Positions 2,723 through 26,297 of a DNA stretch of 26,718 nt are shown piece after piece. This DNA is from a virus, in IMG/VR virus record IMGVR_UViG_3300000228_000003, positions 91,992 through 118,709 of that record; one strand, given 5' to 3'. Position 1 is the stretch's first letter; every line of letters starts with the position of its first letter. The translations under genes and the position numbers were made by a program. The notes under the pieces were generated by a model. That model was not told where the DNA came from and searched no databases. It saw only the letters and a list, made by a program, of their open reading frames with translations.

Positions 2723-2755
2723 TAAGAGTACATAGGGCGACCCTATGTACTCTTA
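2723..2755. terminator. Perfect hairpin between convergent genes (possible bidirectional terminator)
   Basis: Arms 2723-2737 and 2741-2755 pair over 15 bp without mismatch around a 3-base CGA loop. The GGG/CCC pairs sit next to the loop. A T-rich run (2757-2769) follows on the + side at short distance. The hairpin lies between a + strand gene ending at 2710 and a minus-strand gene ending at 2767, so it may stop transcription from both sides. Confidence 0.75.
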
Positions 2756-5505: not shown

Positions 5506-7495
5506 GTACACAGGATTAAATAATGCTATTGGTGTGTATATAGAGGAGCTTATGTCTATACCATTACTAGATATGCTAGAAGGGTATCACACAGATAGTA
5601 ATGTCGTGTTTATAGACGGAGTTAGGTATTTAACTAGTAAGGAAATAGTAGTAAATAGATTATTGCTAGAGTCTACAAATATATATAATTTAAAAATACC
5701 TATAAAAGTTAGTTATAGTGTAGATAACCATTATACAAATGGTTACTTTACAAAAGGTACTATGCTTAGTTTGTTTTCAGCTGTGTTTAAAGATATAGTA
5801 ATAACGTATCCTGATATGGAATATGATAATTTCTTTAAAACACTACAAGAGATAAATGGTGATATGTATAGTATTATAGCACATCATTACGGAGAATATG
5901 CTAGTTCTATACAAATAGAAGACTTTTTAGAAATACAAAATAATAAAGAAATTCTAAAAGCTATAGATGTAGTGGAAAAAGAGAATACTTATACAAACGT
6001 GAAAAAAGCGTATAGTGTTGTAGATAGTGTAATGAGACTACCAGAATATAGTCACAACGCATTAGCTACTGGTTATGTGTGCGGTGCTTATAACAAATCA
6101 CAAGTACATAAACTTATTGGTCCAGCTGGTGCTAGGACAGAGTTATCCGGTCGTATGTATACGCACATGATACCTAATAGTATAACACAAGGATTAAAGA
6201 CAACACTAGATATGTATCAAGAGCAGCGTAGTGGTGCTAAAGCTATGCACGTTTCAGGTGCAGCTATAGCTGGTTCAGAATACGGTGGTCGTATAATTGG
6301 GTTAGTAACACAAAGGGTACATAAGCTGATTAGAGGAGACTGCGGTAGTACTGATTATATAGACTGGTATGTACGTCCTGCTGATGATATTAATAACTCA
6401 GACTTAGTAAGTCTTAGTGGTACCAGATACGTACTACCAGACGGAACTCTTGGTACTATTAATATTAAAGATAAGCATCTCGAGGGAATTATTATAAAGA
6501 TAAGAAATCCATTAAAATGTAAATTGCCTAATAAAGCACATTTATGTAGTACGTGCATGGGAGCTTTATCCAATCAAATTTTTGGTCATACCAACGTAGG
6601 ACTATTATCTGCAACCATACCAATCAGTACACTTACTAGTGGTATGCTAAGTACTAAACACGATAGCGGTAATGTGTCTGGTAATGAGTTAAAGTTATGT
6701 AGTAATGGTGAGAAGTTATTTACTATAAAAAGTGGTAATGTAATGTGTTTCATAGCTGGTAAGCTTAAACAGCGTTACACTAAATATACACTAATAGTTA
6801 ACCAACGGTTCATGAGCGGATTTAAAAGTATTAATAGTAGTACTAATACAGATTTACTTAACCCACTACGTGTCTCTAGAGTAGAAAGTGTTATTATAGA
6901 GGTTTTAGATTCAACTACAGGCGTTATTGAAACGTATGACATAAATACGCATAACGCTAGCTTCACACTTGTGTTCATAAGATATATATTAGACACAGGC
7001 TATACATTAGACCAGTTTGATAGATTTCATATAGACTTATCAGGTTGGCACACTACAGCTGGTGTTTTAATTAAACCTAATATGGAGTTTAGTTACACGA
7101 CAATAAGTAAAGCTATGAAGTCTTTACTAGTGTCTTCTAAAACTTCTAAGCATACACCTATAGGTATGTTACAAGCTATATTCGATTTATTAAATAATAC
7201 TAAGATGTCTACTAATATAGCTTGGGTTAGTATAATGGTGTATGCTTTTATAATGGAGAATAAAGAGAACCATCTTTTAGCTAGATTTACAGACGAGGAG
7301 GCTGCTGCTGTCGGTAATATAAGTAAAATATTAACACAGAGTAGTATAGGTGTTAGTTTAGGCTGGGAACGTATAGATTCTGTTGTGTACGGGCATAGTG
7401 TGTATGATGCAAGTAGGGACTTAGAAACATCTCCAATGGATATGTATCTAGACCCATATAACACAGCACGAGAACTTCGACCGCAAGCTTGGTAA
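5498..7495 (+). CDS. Phage multisubunit RNA polymerase, beta'-type subunit, C-terminal part
   Basis: This 665-aa protein carries the second half of bacterial RpoC. Residues 207-219 (IGPAGARTELSGR) match the SGARGS region, and 231-280 match the GLNVLQYF...[26 protein letters not shown] bridge-helix segment. C282 (in DCGS), C341, C350 and C353 reproduce the four cysteines of the second zinc site (C814, C888, C895, C898 in E. coli). Residues 366-390 (NVGLLSATIPIS...STKHDSG) correspond to the trigger loop, with H388 aligning to the catalytic trigger-loop histidine (H936). The NADFDGD magnesium motif belongs to the N-terminal half and is not here, so another gene outside the window must supply it. 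The gene starts inside the end of the 73-aa gene with only a weak ribosome site, implying coupling. Its stop codon lies in the arm of a 13-bp hairpin. Confidence 0.93.
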   Translation: MAEYTGLNNAIGVYIEELMSIPLLDMLEGYHTDSNVVFIDGVRYLTSKEIVVNRLLLESTNIYNLKIPIKVSYSVDNHYTNGYFTKGTMLSLFSAVFKDIVITYPDMEYDNFFKTLQEINGDMYSIIAHHYGEYASSIQIEDFLEIQNNKEILKAIDVVEKENTYTNVKKAYSVVDSVMRLPEYSHNALATGYVCGAYNKSQVHKLIGPAGARTELSGRMYTHMIPNSITQGLKTTLDMYQEQRSGAKAMHVSGAAIAGSEYGGRIIGLVTQRVHKLIRGDCGSTDYIDWYVRPADDINNSDLVSLSGTRYVLPDGTLGTINIKDKHLEGIIIKIRNPLKCKLPNKAHLCSTCMGALSNQIFGHTNVGLLSATIPISTLTSGMLSTKHDSGNVSGNELKLCSNGEKLFTIKSGNVMCFIAGKLKQRYTKYTLIVNQRFMSGFKSINSSTNTDLLNPLRVSRVESVIIEVLDSTTGVIETYDINTHNASFTLVFIRYILDTGYTLDQFDRFHIDLSGWHTTAGVLIKPNMEFSYTTISKAMKSLLVSSKTSKHTPIGMLQAIFDLLNNTKMSTNIAWVSIMVYAFIMENKENHLLARFTDEEAAAVGNISKILTQSSIGVSLGWERIDSVVYGHSVYDASRDLETSPMDMYLDPYNTARELRPQAW

Positions 7496-7521
7496 ATAGT
7501 GGGGGTATCCCACTATTTACC
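7491..7521 (+). terminator. Perfect hairpin overlapping the RNAP beta' stop codon
   Basis: Arms 7491-7503 and 7509-7521 pair over 13 bp around a GGTAT loop. The TAA stop of the beta'-like gene (7493-7495) is inside the left arm. The downstream sequence is A/T-rich but lacks a clean U-tract, so it may act as a terminator or as a 3'-end stabilising hairpin. Confidence 0.65.
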
Positions 7522-7547
7522 ATTTATAAAAATTAAAAGGAAATAGT

Positions 7548-8288
7548 ATGTTTTTTTATAAAATGATTTTATTATTAGTATTATGTGTTAATATAATAGC
7601 AGCCCCTAGTGGATACGTATTAACTTGGAACGATGAGTTTAATGGTAATAGCTTAAATAACACTAAATGGGAACATAGATATCCTGGTAGGCAATATAAA
7701 ATAGGTTACTTTACCAGCGGCGCAATTAGTGTTAGCGGTGGAACTATAAAAATTAAGACATACATAAAAAATGGTAAAGTGTGGACTGGTCAAATAGGTA
7801 CTGAAAATAAATTTCTAACTAAATATGGGTATTATGAGATAAGGTTCAAGTTACCTAAGATTTATGGACCACAATCTGCTTTTTGGTTACAGAGCCCAAC
7901 GTACGGACAAACCATTTCTAATCCTGGTATATCCGGCGTAGAGATTGACATACTAGAATATGTTAAAACAACACCTAATGAAGTGCATTTTACTCTGCAC
8001 TGGGACGGCTATGGCGTAGACCATAAAAAACAGCATTTTGGTTTTATATACCCAAGTATAGCTAATGGTAAATGGCACACAGTGGGTTTTTTATGGGAAA
8101 GCACTGGATATAAATTATATATAGATGGAACACTTAGATACACAACTAGCACGGCTATTTCTAATGTACCACAATACATGATACTAAGTGCGGGTGTAAC
8201 TGGCTGGGGTGGTGATATATTTAAAGAGGCAATACCAGAAGGTGTTTTTGAAGTTGACTATGTAAGAGTATATAAAAAGGGAGAATAA
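7548..8288 (+). CDS. Secreted glycoside hydrolase family 16 enzyme
   Basis: This 246-aa protein is a compact GH16 beta-glucanase-fold enzyme. Family members cleave beta-linked polysaccharides such as laminarin, lichenan, agar, porphyran or carrageenan. The catalytic signature EIDILE is at residues 132-137: E132 is the expected nucleophile, D134 the assisting residue and E137 the acid/base. Other family features are the opening WNDEFNG (27-33), GYYEIRFKLP (94-103), W113 after the edge strand, and the closing EVDYVRVY (235-242). Residues 1-19 form a signal peptide (K5, hydrophobic 6-18, Ala-Ala near the cut site), so the product should leave the cytoplasm through the Sec route. Start at ATG 7548 after AAAAGGA. 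It directly follows the RNAP operon and its last bases contain the ribosome site of the helicase gene. Substrate cannot be decided. A signal peptide is unusual for a phage depolymerase, which would normally be a tail part. Confidence 0.92.
   Translation: MFFYKMILLLVLCVNIIAAPSGYVLTWNDEFNGNSLNNTKWEHRYPGRQYKIGYFTSGAISVSGGTIKIKTYIKNGKVWTGQIGTENKFLTKYGYYEIRFKLPKIYGPQSAFWLQSPTYGQTISNPGISGVEIDILEYVKTTPNEVHFTLHWDGYGVDHKKQHFGFIYPSIANGKWHTVGFLWESTGYKLYIDGTLRYTTSTAISNVPQYMILSAGVTGWGGDIFKEAIPEGVFEVDYVRVYKKGE
8277..8283 (+). promoter_or_regulatory. Ribosome binding site for helicase inside the GH16 gene end
   Basis: AAGGGAG lies within the last codons of the GH16 gene, seven bases before the helicase ATG at 8291. 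Only two bases separate the GH16 stop from that ATG. This supports the chosen helicase start and indicates coupled translation of two functionally unrelated genes. Confidence 0.6.
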
Positions 8289-11017: not shown

Positions 11018-11045
11018 GTAGTAGTAGGAACATTCCTACTACTAC
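11018..11045 (+). terminator. Strong intrinsic terminator
   Basis: Arms 11018-11029 and 11034-11045 form a 12-bp perfect stem with an ACAT loop. A run of eight T (11052-11059) follows after a short spacer. It separates the 368-aa gene from the first giant fibre gene and is the most classical terminator in the window. Confidence 0.85.
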
Positions 11046-17788: not shown

Positions 17789-17828
17789 ATATCTTACACT
17801 TAGAGGATATCCTCTAAGTGTAAGATAT
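17789..17828 (+). terminator. 18-bp perfect hairpin at left border of the signalling cassette
   Basis: Arms 17789-17806 and 17811-17828 pair over 18 bp without mismatch around an ATAT loop, then TTTTAAT. It is the longest stem in the window. It should separate the fibre operon from the two-component cassette that follows. Confidence 0.8.
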
Positions 17829-17873
17829 TTTAATGATTTCGTAAGAGATTAATACTATTTACTAGGTATAACT

Positions 17874-18314
17874 ATGGGTAAAGGAACATTACACCGTTTT
17901 GAAAAACTTAAACAAGAATTAGAAGAGTTATCTAAGTTAGACACTGTTAATGGTGATGATAAGAATCTAGAAATCATACTATCGCTGACCTCACTAGACC
18001 ATGAACTATACAGCTGTATAATACTATTATATTCTCGTATAAAAGCAGAAGCCCAATTATCTAATGCCCTTAGAAGAAATGTGTTAATAAATATAGTAGA
18101 AGTATTAGAAGAGGAATACACTACTAACTTAAATAACAATAATACTTTTCTCAACACATTTTACAACATATTAAACGTAATAAATAGTTCGTTATTTTTA
18201 AAAAGTAGTACGATACTAGCTTTCTTGTCTATTTTTGTTATAATAGTAACAACTAATGAAAAAGCTATGCCTATAATAAATAAAATACTTACATTTTTAT
18301 CAGGAGGTAACTAA
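17874..18314 (+). CDS. Single-pass membrane protein, first gene of the two-component cassette
   Basis: This 146-aa protein has no family I recognise. Residues 8-85 are strongly helical with heptad-like Leu/Ile and Glu/Lys patterns (coiled coil likely), including LKQELEELSKL (12-22). An Asn-rich patch lies at 85-101 and one transmembrane helix at about 107-126 (LFLKSSTILAFLSIFVIIV), with a short tail after it. It therefore looks like a tail-anchored or single-pass inner-membrane protein with a cytoplasmic helical domain. Its ATG has only a weak AGG upstream. The ribosome site of the response regulator, AGGAGG at 18302-18307, is inside its last codons, and the stop is directly followed by the regulator's ATG. 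This tight coupling suggests the three products work together. It could be a sensor, scaffold or regulator of the kinase; that is inference. Confidence 0.75.
   Translation: MGKGTLHRFEKLKQELEELSKLDTVNGDDKNLEIILSLTSLDHELYSCIILLYSRIKAEAQLSNALRRNVLINIVEVLEEEYTTNLNNNNTFLNTFYNILNVINSSLFLKSSTILAFLSIFVIIVTTNEKAMPIINKILTFLSGGN
18302..18308 (+). promoter_or_regulatory. Strong Shine-Dalgarno for the response regulator
   Basis: AGGAGGT is a near-perfect anti-16S match, six bases before the regulator ATG at 18315, and lies within the upstream reading frame. It fixes the regulator start and couples it to the membrane-protein gene. Confidence 0.8.
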
Positions 18315-18962
18315 ATGGGCTTAAAAGATATGCTGTCGTTTATACGAAGATTCATATTACCAAGTAACATAAAAAAGCAACAAGAAGTAAATTATAGTAA
18401 ATATACTATAATAGAAGAAATACCAGCGTGTATAGATTATGATACGTTTACTAAACCTAATATTAAAGGTAATATAAGAACACCTAAAGTACTTATATTA
18501 GACGATATTAACTACACAGTTATACTTTACCGTAATGATTTATTGGAAATAGCTAAGTTACACAATAGAAACCCACTTATTGATTTTGAGATAGTAGAAA
18601 TTTTCGATGAAAATGCTGGGTTCATAGCGCATAAATATGTTACACTAGATAAAAACATAATAGACTATGCTATATTAGATTTAACATTAGGTGCAATCTA
18701 TAAAATAGCAGATGGTACGTGTATATCGTACGATGGTGTAGATATAGCTATAGAGATACTTAAACTAAACCCAGACGCTAAGATATTATTCGTAACAGCA
18801 CACACGATGGCTATACACTCACCATCATATGCACTATATGGTAATAAATTTAAACGCGCTACTGGTAAAGATATATTGGCACACACTGCCTCTAAAATAG
18901 ATAATAGACATAGAGCAAGTAGTATTTATAAGTTATTATATGGCGGTAACAGTGAAACATAA
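18315..18962 (+). CDS. Response regulator with receiver domain and no output domain
   Basis: This 215-aa protein has a 53-residue Lys-rich lead followed by a receiver domain at about 54-195. The strand PKVLILDD (57-64) supplies the acidic pair D63/D64. YAILDLTLG (118-126) places D122 as the expected phospho-acceptor. ILFVTAHT (157-164) gives the switch Thr at 161. DG-VDIAIEILK (139-150) fits helix 3 after the DG turn. K180 is the best candidate for the conserved lysine, but the usual Lys-Pro pair is missing. Spacings D64-D122 and D122-T161 are longer than in CheY, implying two loop insertions. No DNA-binding or enzymatic output domain follows, so signalling would go through protein contact. 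The last 23 bases overlap the histidine kinase gene, which strongly supports a cognate pair. Confidence 0.82.
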   Translation: MGLKDMLSFIRRFILPSNIKKQQEVNYSKYTIIEEIPACIDYDTFTKPNIKGNIRTPKVLILDDINYTVILYRNDLLEIAKLHNRNPLIDFEIVEIFDENAGFIAHKYVTLDKNIIDYAILDLTLGAIYKIADGTCISYDGVDIAIEILKLNPDAKILFVTAHTMAIHSPSYALYGNKFKRATGKDILAHTASKIDNRHRASSIYKLLYGGNSET

Positions 18963-19944
18963 TATTGTTATTAATTATATATTAGCTATGCTACCTGTAG
19001 TAACAATATATACTATACTAACCGTTATAGGTGTTAACATGTATGTTAATACGCACCCTGCTTCTAATATAAATCTTATTATAGTATTAGCTTTAACTAA
19101 CATTGTATGTTTCGCGGTATGTTTTTCTCTATATACTATATTAGTATTTATAAAGAAGATAATAATTGAGAAGAGTAAGCAACAACAAACTATGGAGATA
19201 CAACTCCAAGCAGAGTTAGTAGAATCAGTTAGGCATGAAATGGGTGCACCAGTTACAGTTATTAAGCTTATGGCACATCTAATTAAAGAAAATAAGAAAT
19301 GCTTAGTTTGTGATAACAAAGAGTATGATGAAGCAGAGACCACTGTCTTAGACTATATAGATAGACTGTCACTAGCTACTGACCAACTAGATGCTATATT
19401 ACAACAAATGTCGTCTAATAAAAGAATAAAGTATAGTAATGGGGATACTTCTATTATGAAAATAATAGAAACAGTAATAACTAATAAAAATAATAGTAAA
19501 TTAACAGCTAGCTACAGTGATGAGTTAAATATTTTAACTACGTTAGCTATTGGTGGTAAACTTAATAATGGTGATGTGTTAAATGTTTTACATAACCTTG
19601 TCACCAACTCTATAGAAGCTGGCAGCACTAAAATACATTTTACAGCTGAGTCCTTAGATGCTAAAAATGTATCTTTAATAATAGCAGACAACGGAGGCGG
19701 TATAAGAAATAGTAAAGGGGATATACTTAGTACTAAGGAAGTATCTAAAATATTTAAACCAGGATTTAGTACTAAAGATATCCATATTAATACTTATAAG
19801 TCATTACGTGGTGTTGGATTATATTTTGTTAAACACACATTAGAACAAGCAGATGGCAGTATATCGTTATTAGAAACATCTCTTAATGGTACTATATTTA
19901 AGATAGTTTTTCCTGTAAAAGCACTAGAACCACACATATCATAG
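18940..19944 (+). CDS. Membrane histidine kinase, intramembrane-sensing layout
   Basis: This 334-aa protein is a complete sensor kinase in miniature. Two transmembrane helices (about 11-32 and 45-71) are joined by only about a dozen residues outside the membrane, and a linker helix (72-95) leads to the H-box VRHEMGAPVTVIK (97-109), with H99 as phospho-acceptor and E100 beside it. The ATP-binding domain has an N-box HNLVTNSIEAG (218-228; N219/N223), G1 DNGGGI (250-255), an F-box-like IFKPGFSTK (271-279) and G2 GVGLYFVK (291-298). All residues needed for autophosphorylation appear present. With almost no sensory loop, input probably comes from the membrane itself or from a partner, such as the cassette's single-pass protein. 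The ATG at 18940 lies inside the regulator gene and lacks a clear ribosome site; GTG 18952 is an alternative start. The stop TAG is inside a 14-bp hairpin. Confidence 0.92.
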   Translation: MAVTVKHNIVINYILAMLPVVTIYTILTVIGVNMYVNTHPASNINLIIVLALTNIVCFAVCFSLYTILVFIKKIIIEKSKQQQTMEIQLQAELVESVRHEMGAPVTVIKLMAHLIKENKKCLVCDNKEYDEAETTVLDYIDRLSLATDQLDAILQQMSSNKRIKYSNGDTSIMKIIETVITNKNNSKLTASYSDELNILTTLAIGGKLNNGDVLNVLHNLVTNSIEAGSTKIHFTAESLDAKNVSLIIADNGGGIRNSKGDILSTKEVSKIFKPGFSTKDIHINTYKSLRGVGLYFVKHTLEQADGSISLLETSLNGTIFKIVFPVKALEPHIS

Positions 19945-26263: not shown

Positions 26264-26297
26264 AGTATAACACTGGGTTTTAACCCAGTGTTATACT
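26264..26297 (+). terminator. 15-bp perfect hairpin
   Basis: Arms 26264-26278 and 26283-26297 pair over 15 bp around a TTTA loop. It follows the 206-aa fibre gene and precedes a new gene at 26335. There is no U-tract afterwards. Confidence 0.65.

Follow-up and report, generated by a model that had tools for sequence, protein, structure and literature searches.

A putative phage-owned two-component signalling cassette in nucleus-forming jumbo phages

The DNA analysed here (the window, 26,718 nucleotides) is the end of a 118.7-kb IMG/VR contig (G000) and carries three adjacent genes. Their products are P1, a tail-anchored membrane protein, P2, which resembles a receiver, and P3, a membrane histidine kinase. 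The same triad is conserved in two other jumbo phages, in agreement with the proposal of an earlier note that this is a phage-encoded three-gene two-component cassette. Our overall explanation, which we favour without regarding it as settled, is that the triad is a phage-owned two-component relay of nucleus-forming jumbo phages, the output of which is exerted by protein contact on an envelope process. That P3 and P2 are a working kinase–receiver pair is probable, phosphotransfer itself being inferred. Phosphorelay signalling is usually treated as a cellular property; a co-evolving unit of kinase, receiver and membrane protein across a deep clade would mean that signal transduction at the host membrane is, in some viruses, run by the virus itself. 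The cassette thus offers a concrete entry point, open to mutation, to the question of whether infection by such phages is adjusted to extracellular conditions.

Gene order, flanks and phage context

The cassette and its flanking elements are as follows (window positions).

17789..17828, no strand: upstream of the cassette, a perfect loop-free 40-bp palindrome (20-bp arms) that probably acts as a terminator or processing element
17874..18314, + strand: P1, 146 aa; helical cytoplasmic N-terminal part and one C-terminal TM segment (residues 107-125)
18303..18308, + strand: AGGAGG, ribosome-binding site for P2 predicted from sequence, within the 3′ end of P1
18315..18962, + strand: P2, 215 aa; probable divergent receiver domain at about residues 57-205, N-terminal amphipathic helix (residues 1-18), no TM segment and no DNA-binding domain
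18940..19944, + strand: P3, 334 aa; membrane histidine kinase with two TM segments and a short periplasmic loop
19940..19971, no strand: perfect loop-free 32-bp palindrome (16-bp arms) that overlaps the P3 stop codon and probably acts as a terminator or processing element

The three open reading frames at 17874-19944 are present as the earlier note described them, with a 0-base junction between P1 and P2 and a 23-base overlap between P2 and P3. The perfect inverted repeats that it reported on either side are also there, albeit without a loop and with arms of 20 and 16 bp rather than 18 and 14 bp. They do not bracket the cassette in any special way, being two of 32 palindromes of this type in the contig, 24 of which are intergenic compared with 0-1 expected by chance. 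Given this excess, the flanking palindromes are ordinary intergenic elements of the phage, and all that they mark is a transcription unit; a special role for them was rejected, such palindromes being ubiquitous in this phage. Across the contig, the long intergenic palindromes (about 24) are perfect or loop-poor, with arms of 12-20 bp, and many lack a T-run (examples are found at window positions 2723-2755, 7490-7522, 11018-11045 and 26264-26297); we read them as terminators or processing sites that together form a system of this phage. The placement of the cassette between tail-fibre genes is only half supported: the upstream neighbours are indeed tail-collar/fibre genes, whereas the 829-aa gene downstream of P3 has no family match. 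The sequence TTACTAGGTA, a possible promoter motif, has just four copies on the contig's + strand; two of them are at window positions 17859 and 19997, which is 15 bases ahead of the start of P1 and 24 bases ahead of that of the next gene.

Judged by its gene content, the source is a phiKZ-like nucleus-forming jumbo phage that is far from the cultured ones. The contig encodes phiKZ-type virion and non-virion RNA polymerase subunits, a DNA polymerase, a RecJ-like nuclease, a terminase and a major head protein, together with a very divergent homologue of the nuclear-shell protein chimallin (G000:8668-10491, L002; phrog_4795, E 1e-12), which is also found in G001, G051 and G002. The criterion for a nucleus-forming phiKZ-like phage, a nuclear shell and two multisubunit RNA polymerases, is met (phrog_4795, phrog_3148, phrog_3295 and phrog_3015). 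The RNA polymerases are approximately 22-32% identical to those of cultured phages.

A search of IMG/VR with a vRNAP alignment gave 80 phiKZ-like records, and it was only through this alignment that the relatives were first reached. In the nearest record, G001 (222 kb; vRNAP 41%), P2 is found at 40% identity with the kinase adjoining it, and the full triad is present in the same order. The third carrier, G051 (205 kb), was found by a kinase alignment and again has the full triad; given this recurrence, the arrangement is not a product of chance. Between them, the two relatives show 40-46% identity to our P2 and 33-35% to our P3. None of the approximately 78 other phiKZ-like records, many of which are incomplete, contains P2 or an HATPase_c domain above the cut-off. 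In the vRNAP tree, the branches of which are long, the three carriers form one clade (SH-aLRT 95). Several other matches were rejected. A HATPase match in G066 (L127:1414-3099) is not a kinase: this 561-aa GHKL ATPase lacks kinase features and is an Hsp90/MutL-like protein on a phiKZ-like contig. Three tblastn matches proved unrelated to the triad: in MT835489 and MT835716 the locus is an ordinary two-component one of bacteria, and in MT837790 it is an element with a methyltransferase and a GHKL-ATPase.

Two-component systems are bacterial and many histidine-kinase matches in phage records resemble host contamination, both of which would speak for bacterial DNA misjoined to the phage contig, the possible refuter named in the earlier note, or for a recent pick-up of host genes. 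This explanation is already refuted and we attach practically no weight to it, because the triad lies in the same order in independent, deeply diverged jumbo-phage contigs of one clade, with P2 and P3 at 33-46% identity. Moreover, the genes for the same RNA polymerase subunit and helicase precede the cassette both in G051 and in our window, and palindromes of phage type flank our cassette. The triad appears to have been kept in the carrier clade of nucleus-building phages through deep evolutionary time.

The kinase, the receiver-like protein and P1

The catalytic features of P3 are located as follows.

19234-19236, + strand: phospho-acceptor His99 in the HEMGxP H box, invariant in the three kinases
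19300..19311, + strand: CxxC (C121, C124), 22-25 residues past His99, at the expected HisKA hairpin loop
19603..19827, + strand: ATP-binding boxes: N box TNSIEA (222-227), G1 DNGGGI (250), F box GFSTK (275) and G2 RGVGL (290)

The kinase had been described as having all catalytic boxes, and this proved correct: besides His99, the N, G1, F and G2 boxes are found, and the H box HEMGxP, the N box TNSIEA and the G1, F and G2 boxes are kept in all three kinases. The suggested profile search of the cassette succeeded in part. The Pfam HATPase_c domain was recovered above its cut-off (50.6 bits against 26.4) and HisKA fell just under its own (23.1 bits against 26.9; E 7.7e-5), while Response_reg (PF00072) remained unmatched. 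By its HATPase_c match P3 meets the defining kinase domain of two-component sensor histidine kinases, its autophosphorylation being inferred. The TM segments span residues 14-32 and 46-64, and the region ahead of the kinase core varies: our P3 has a periplasmic loop of 13 residues there, the relatives about 100 residues with a CX4C pair.

The C121/C124 pair is invariant in the three kinases, the two relatives having 4-5 cysteines at this place, and this cluster could bind metal or sense the redox state. Many NCBIfam sensor-kinase models match P3 weakly, the best being that of the redox-sensitive RegB/PrrB kinase, far below its cut-off. Together with the periplasmic CX4C of the relatives, these observations are what can be said for an explanation in which the cassette senses redox state or metal through the hairpin cysteines, with P1 or P2 adjusting membrane physiology and not lysis. 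Our kinase, however, has no periplasmic domain and only two of the cysteines, and we consider this explanation unlikely.

The residues of P2 that bear on its assignment are the following.

18501-18506, + strand: acidic pair D63-D64, invariant in the three homologues
18678-18680, + strand: phospho-Asp D122, invariant in the three homologues
18795-18797, + strand: Thr161, invariant in the three homologues
18846-18848, + strand: candidate β5 Lys178, invariant; the hhalign alignment ends before the β5 Lys position

P2 alone has no match in Pfam, NCBIfam or PADLOC and only trivial matches in PHROG. The receiver domain PF00072 has no match in the contig at E ≤ 1 and none by hmmscan, so that the curated cut-off is not met. 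Nothing came out of a PDB profile search with P2 or of scanning viral and genome collections with single sequences, and at the sensitivities used neither cultured phages nor plasmids nor bacterial genomes gave a match to P2. As no library recognises P2, its assignment needed a family profile. A profile built from the three sequences was compared by hhalign with an alignment of twelve receivers from E. coli K-12 and other loci, giving a probability of 78% and a score of 37.7; in the controls, 100 column shuffles reached at most 3.3% and a score of 21, reversal gave 0% and P1 gave 0.2%. In this alignment D63-D64, D122, a DG motif and T161, all of them invariant, are in register with the bacterial receiver active site, which supports the acidic pair, phospho-Asp and switch Thr claimed for P2, within the limits of a three-sequence profile. 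Past the phospho-Asp, P2 has roughly ten inserted residues. Structure prediction contributed less. The AlphaFold2 (AF2) model from the three sequences is poor and of low confidence (pLDDT 53, pTM 0.60), and that from the single sequence is useless (pLDDT 33). Foldseek with the former listed many response regulators among its top PDB ranks, none of them with a significant E-value, and was not used as proof. With strong profile support, P2 can be described as receiver-like, below the Pfam receiver threshold yet with the active-site residues kept, and it stands for a receiver family that present libraries miss.

Divergent receivers have been described in jumbo phages: cREC (Pfam PF20274) is tied to NAD and RNA-repair enzymes and never occurs with histidine kinases (Iyer et al., 2021; PMC7824862). 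P2 resembles it in its conserved aspartates, in its jumbo-phage genomes and, as far as the profile comparison supports it, in a divergent receiver fold, and the G051 P2 has a sub-threshold cREC_REC match (E 0.17, the best obtained). P2 might then be a phosphoesterase-like relative of cREC and not a phospho-receiver, the neighbouring kinase forming a separate unit. Yet P2 adjoins a kinase in all three phages, our contig has no cREC match at E up to 10 and no NAD or RNA-repair gene was recognised in the operon. We therefore hold this reading to be very improbable, and P2 has not been shown to be a cREC.

In each of the three homologues the hydrophobic moment of P2 peaks at the N-terminus or no more than three residues from it. 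Since the strongest amphipathic segment is N-terminal in all of them, P2 probably sits close to P3 and the tail-anchored P1 on the inner membrane. P1 is less well conserved than its partners: its homologues (L107:8166-8594 and L110:5331-5771) are 35% identical to each other (G051 versus G001; E 5e-20), and our P1 is only 21-25% identical to them (E 0.019 in one comparison), so that its homology, weak at the level of residues, rests on position, size and predicted topology. P1 was rejected as a histidine phosphotransfer protein, no His being conserved among the three.

A proposed relay at the inner membrane

In the phage-owned relay that we favour, P3 would be an inner-membrane sensor that autophosphorylates on His99, and the phosphate would be passed to Asp122 of P2, kept at the membrane by its N-terminal amphipathic helix. 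Since P2 has no DNA-binding domain, its output would be by contact with a protein, the likeliest being the tail-anchored P1 encoded beside it, and an envelope process would be changed late in infection, for example the timing of lysis or the response to superinfection. In phages of this group, the phage nucleus is expected to enclose both the viral genome and the viral polymerases, at a distance from the membrane. Protein contact, for which P1 is the first candidate, fits better as the mode of output than direct control of transcription. The scheme builds on the kinase boxes, the receiver active-site residues, gene order, membrane topology and clade-restricted conservation, all read from sequence, while phosphotransfer, the membrane binding of P2, P1 as the output and the envelope role are inferred.

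The main rival, which we find doubtful, places the target in the host: P3 would phosphorylate or dephosphorylate host response regulators and P2 would draw phosphate from host kinases as a sink or decoy, so that envelope or stress signalling of the host would be rewired. For a sink, a receiver that lacks an output domain is the natural shape, and with the kinase facing the cytoplasm and the phage genome within the nucleus, host signalling is within reach. Nevertheless, the kinase and receiver are always co-encoded and diverge together, as expected for a cognate pair, P1 always accompanies them, and a membrane tether on P2 would be needless.

What a phage-owned relay might control is suggested by the genes that directly follow the triad in G001 and G051.

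L107:10646-12120 and L110:7828-9305: two genes immediately following the triad, one for a small secreted protein and one for a secreted protein of 396-398 aa

The small secreted protein (93 and 96 aa) comes first, followed by the larger one, which ends in Phe and is 42% identical between the two phages; only after both genes does the next downstream intergenic palindrome occur. The larger protein has no library match and, of 50 records searched, is found in no other. Its signal peptide and C-terminal aromatic residue, and these alone, suggest an outer-membrane barrel; a β-strand alternation score was discarded because it failed to separate even E. coli OmpC from other proteins. Both genes are absent from our contig, which is incomplete. 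A phage-encoded outer-membrane protein within a signalling operon would be unusual in itself. Endolysin-like genes lie approximately 4 kb downstream of our cassette and just upstream of that in G001. Because these genes are close, and because the operon of the relatives spans the periplasm and probably the outer membrane, sensing of the envelope or of superinfection with an effect on lysis is our leading guess; a lysis or superinfection output remains tentative, the link to lysis being one of gene neighbourhood only. A fuller version, in which a trans-envelope operon of outer-membrane and periplasmic proteins, sensor kinase, tethered receiver and P1 senses the outside, for example superinfecting virions, and sets lysis by phosphorelay, is speculative.

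Comparison with known systems

With its membrane kinase with all boxes, encoded in one operon with a P2 that has the acidic pair, phospho-Asp and Thr and no output domain, the cassette resembles bacterial two-component systems with a stand-alone receiver of the CheY/Spo0F type. It differs from them in being encoded by nucleus-forming phages, in its fixed partner P1 and in the cysteine cluster of the HisKA hairpin, and P2 differs from bacterial receivers in falling below every library threshold, in the insertion past the phospho-Asp and in its N-terminal amphipathic helix. Lysis inhibition in T4, involving RI and the holin T, is a case of phage-encoded envelope sensing late in infection, although the analogy is functional only: it is not known to use a phosphorelay, and no holin or RI homologue has been shown for our cassette.

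Our literature search gave no description of a phage-encoded two-component kinase–receiver pair, and a survey of huge phages mentions none as far as its main text goes (PMC7162821). A typical histidine kinase query matched 178 phage records; among the matches listed, most were short or unannotated and resembled host DNA. The clear exception among them was LR756501, an uncultured phage of 735 kb whose hybrid kinase (L020:3924-6137) likewise puts kinase and receiver functions on a giant phage genome. This kinase is, however, a single PAS-HisKA-HATPase-REC protein of 737 aa with no evident TM segment, without a separate receiver or P1, in a phage lineage different from that of the carriers. Finally, the window also encodes a secreted GH16 glycoside hydrolase (7548-8288; E 3e-15) between the non-virion RNA polymerase and helicase genes, and a similar-looking enzyme adjoins the LR756501 hybrid kinase (L020:6436-7386).
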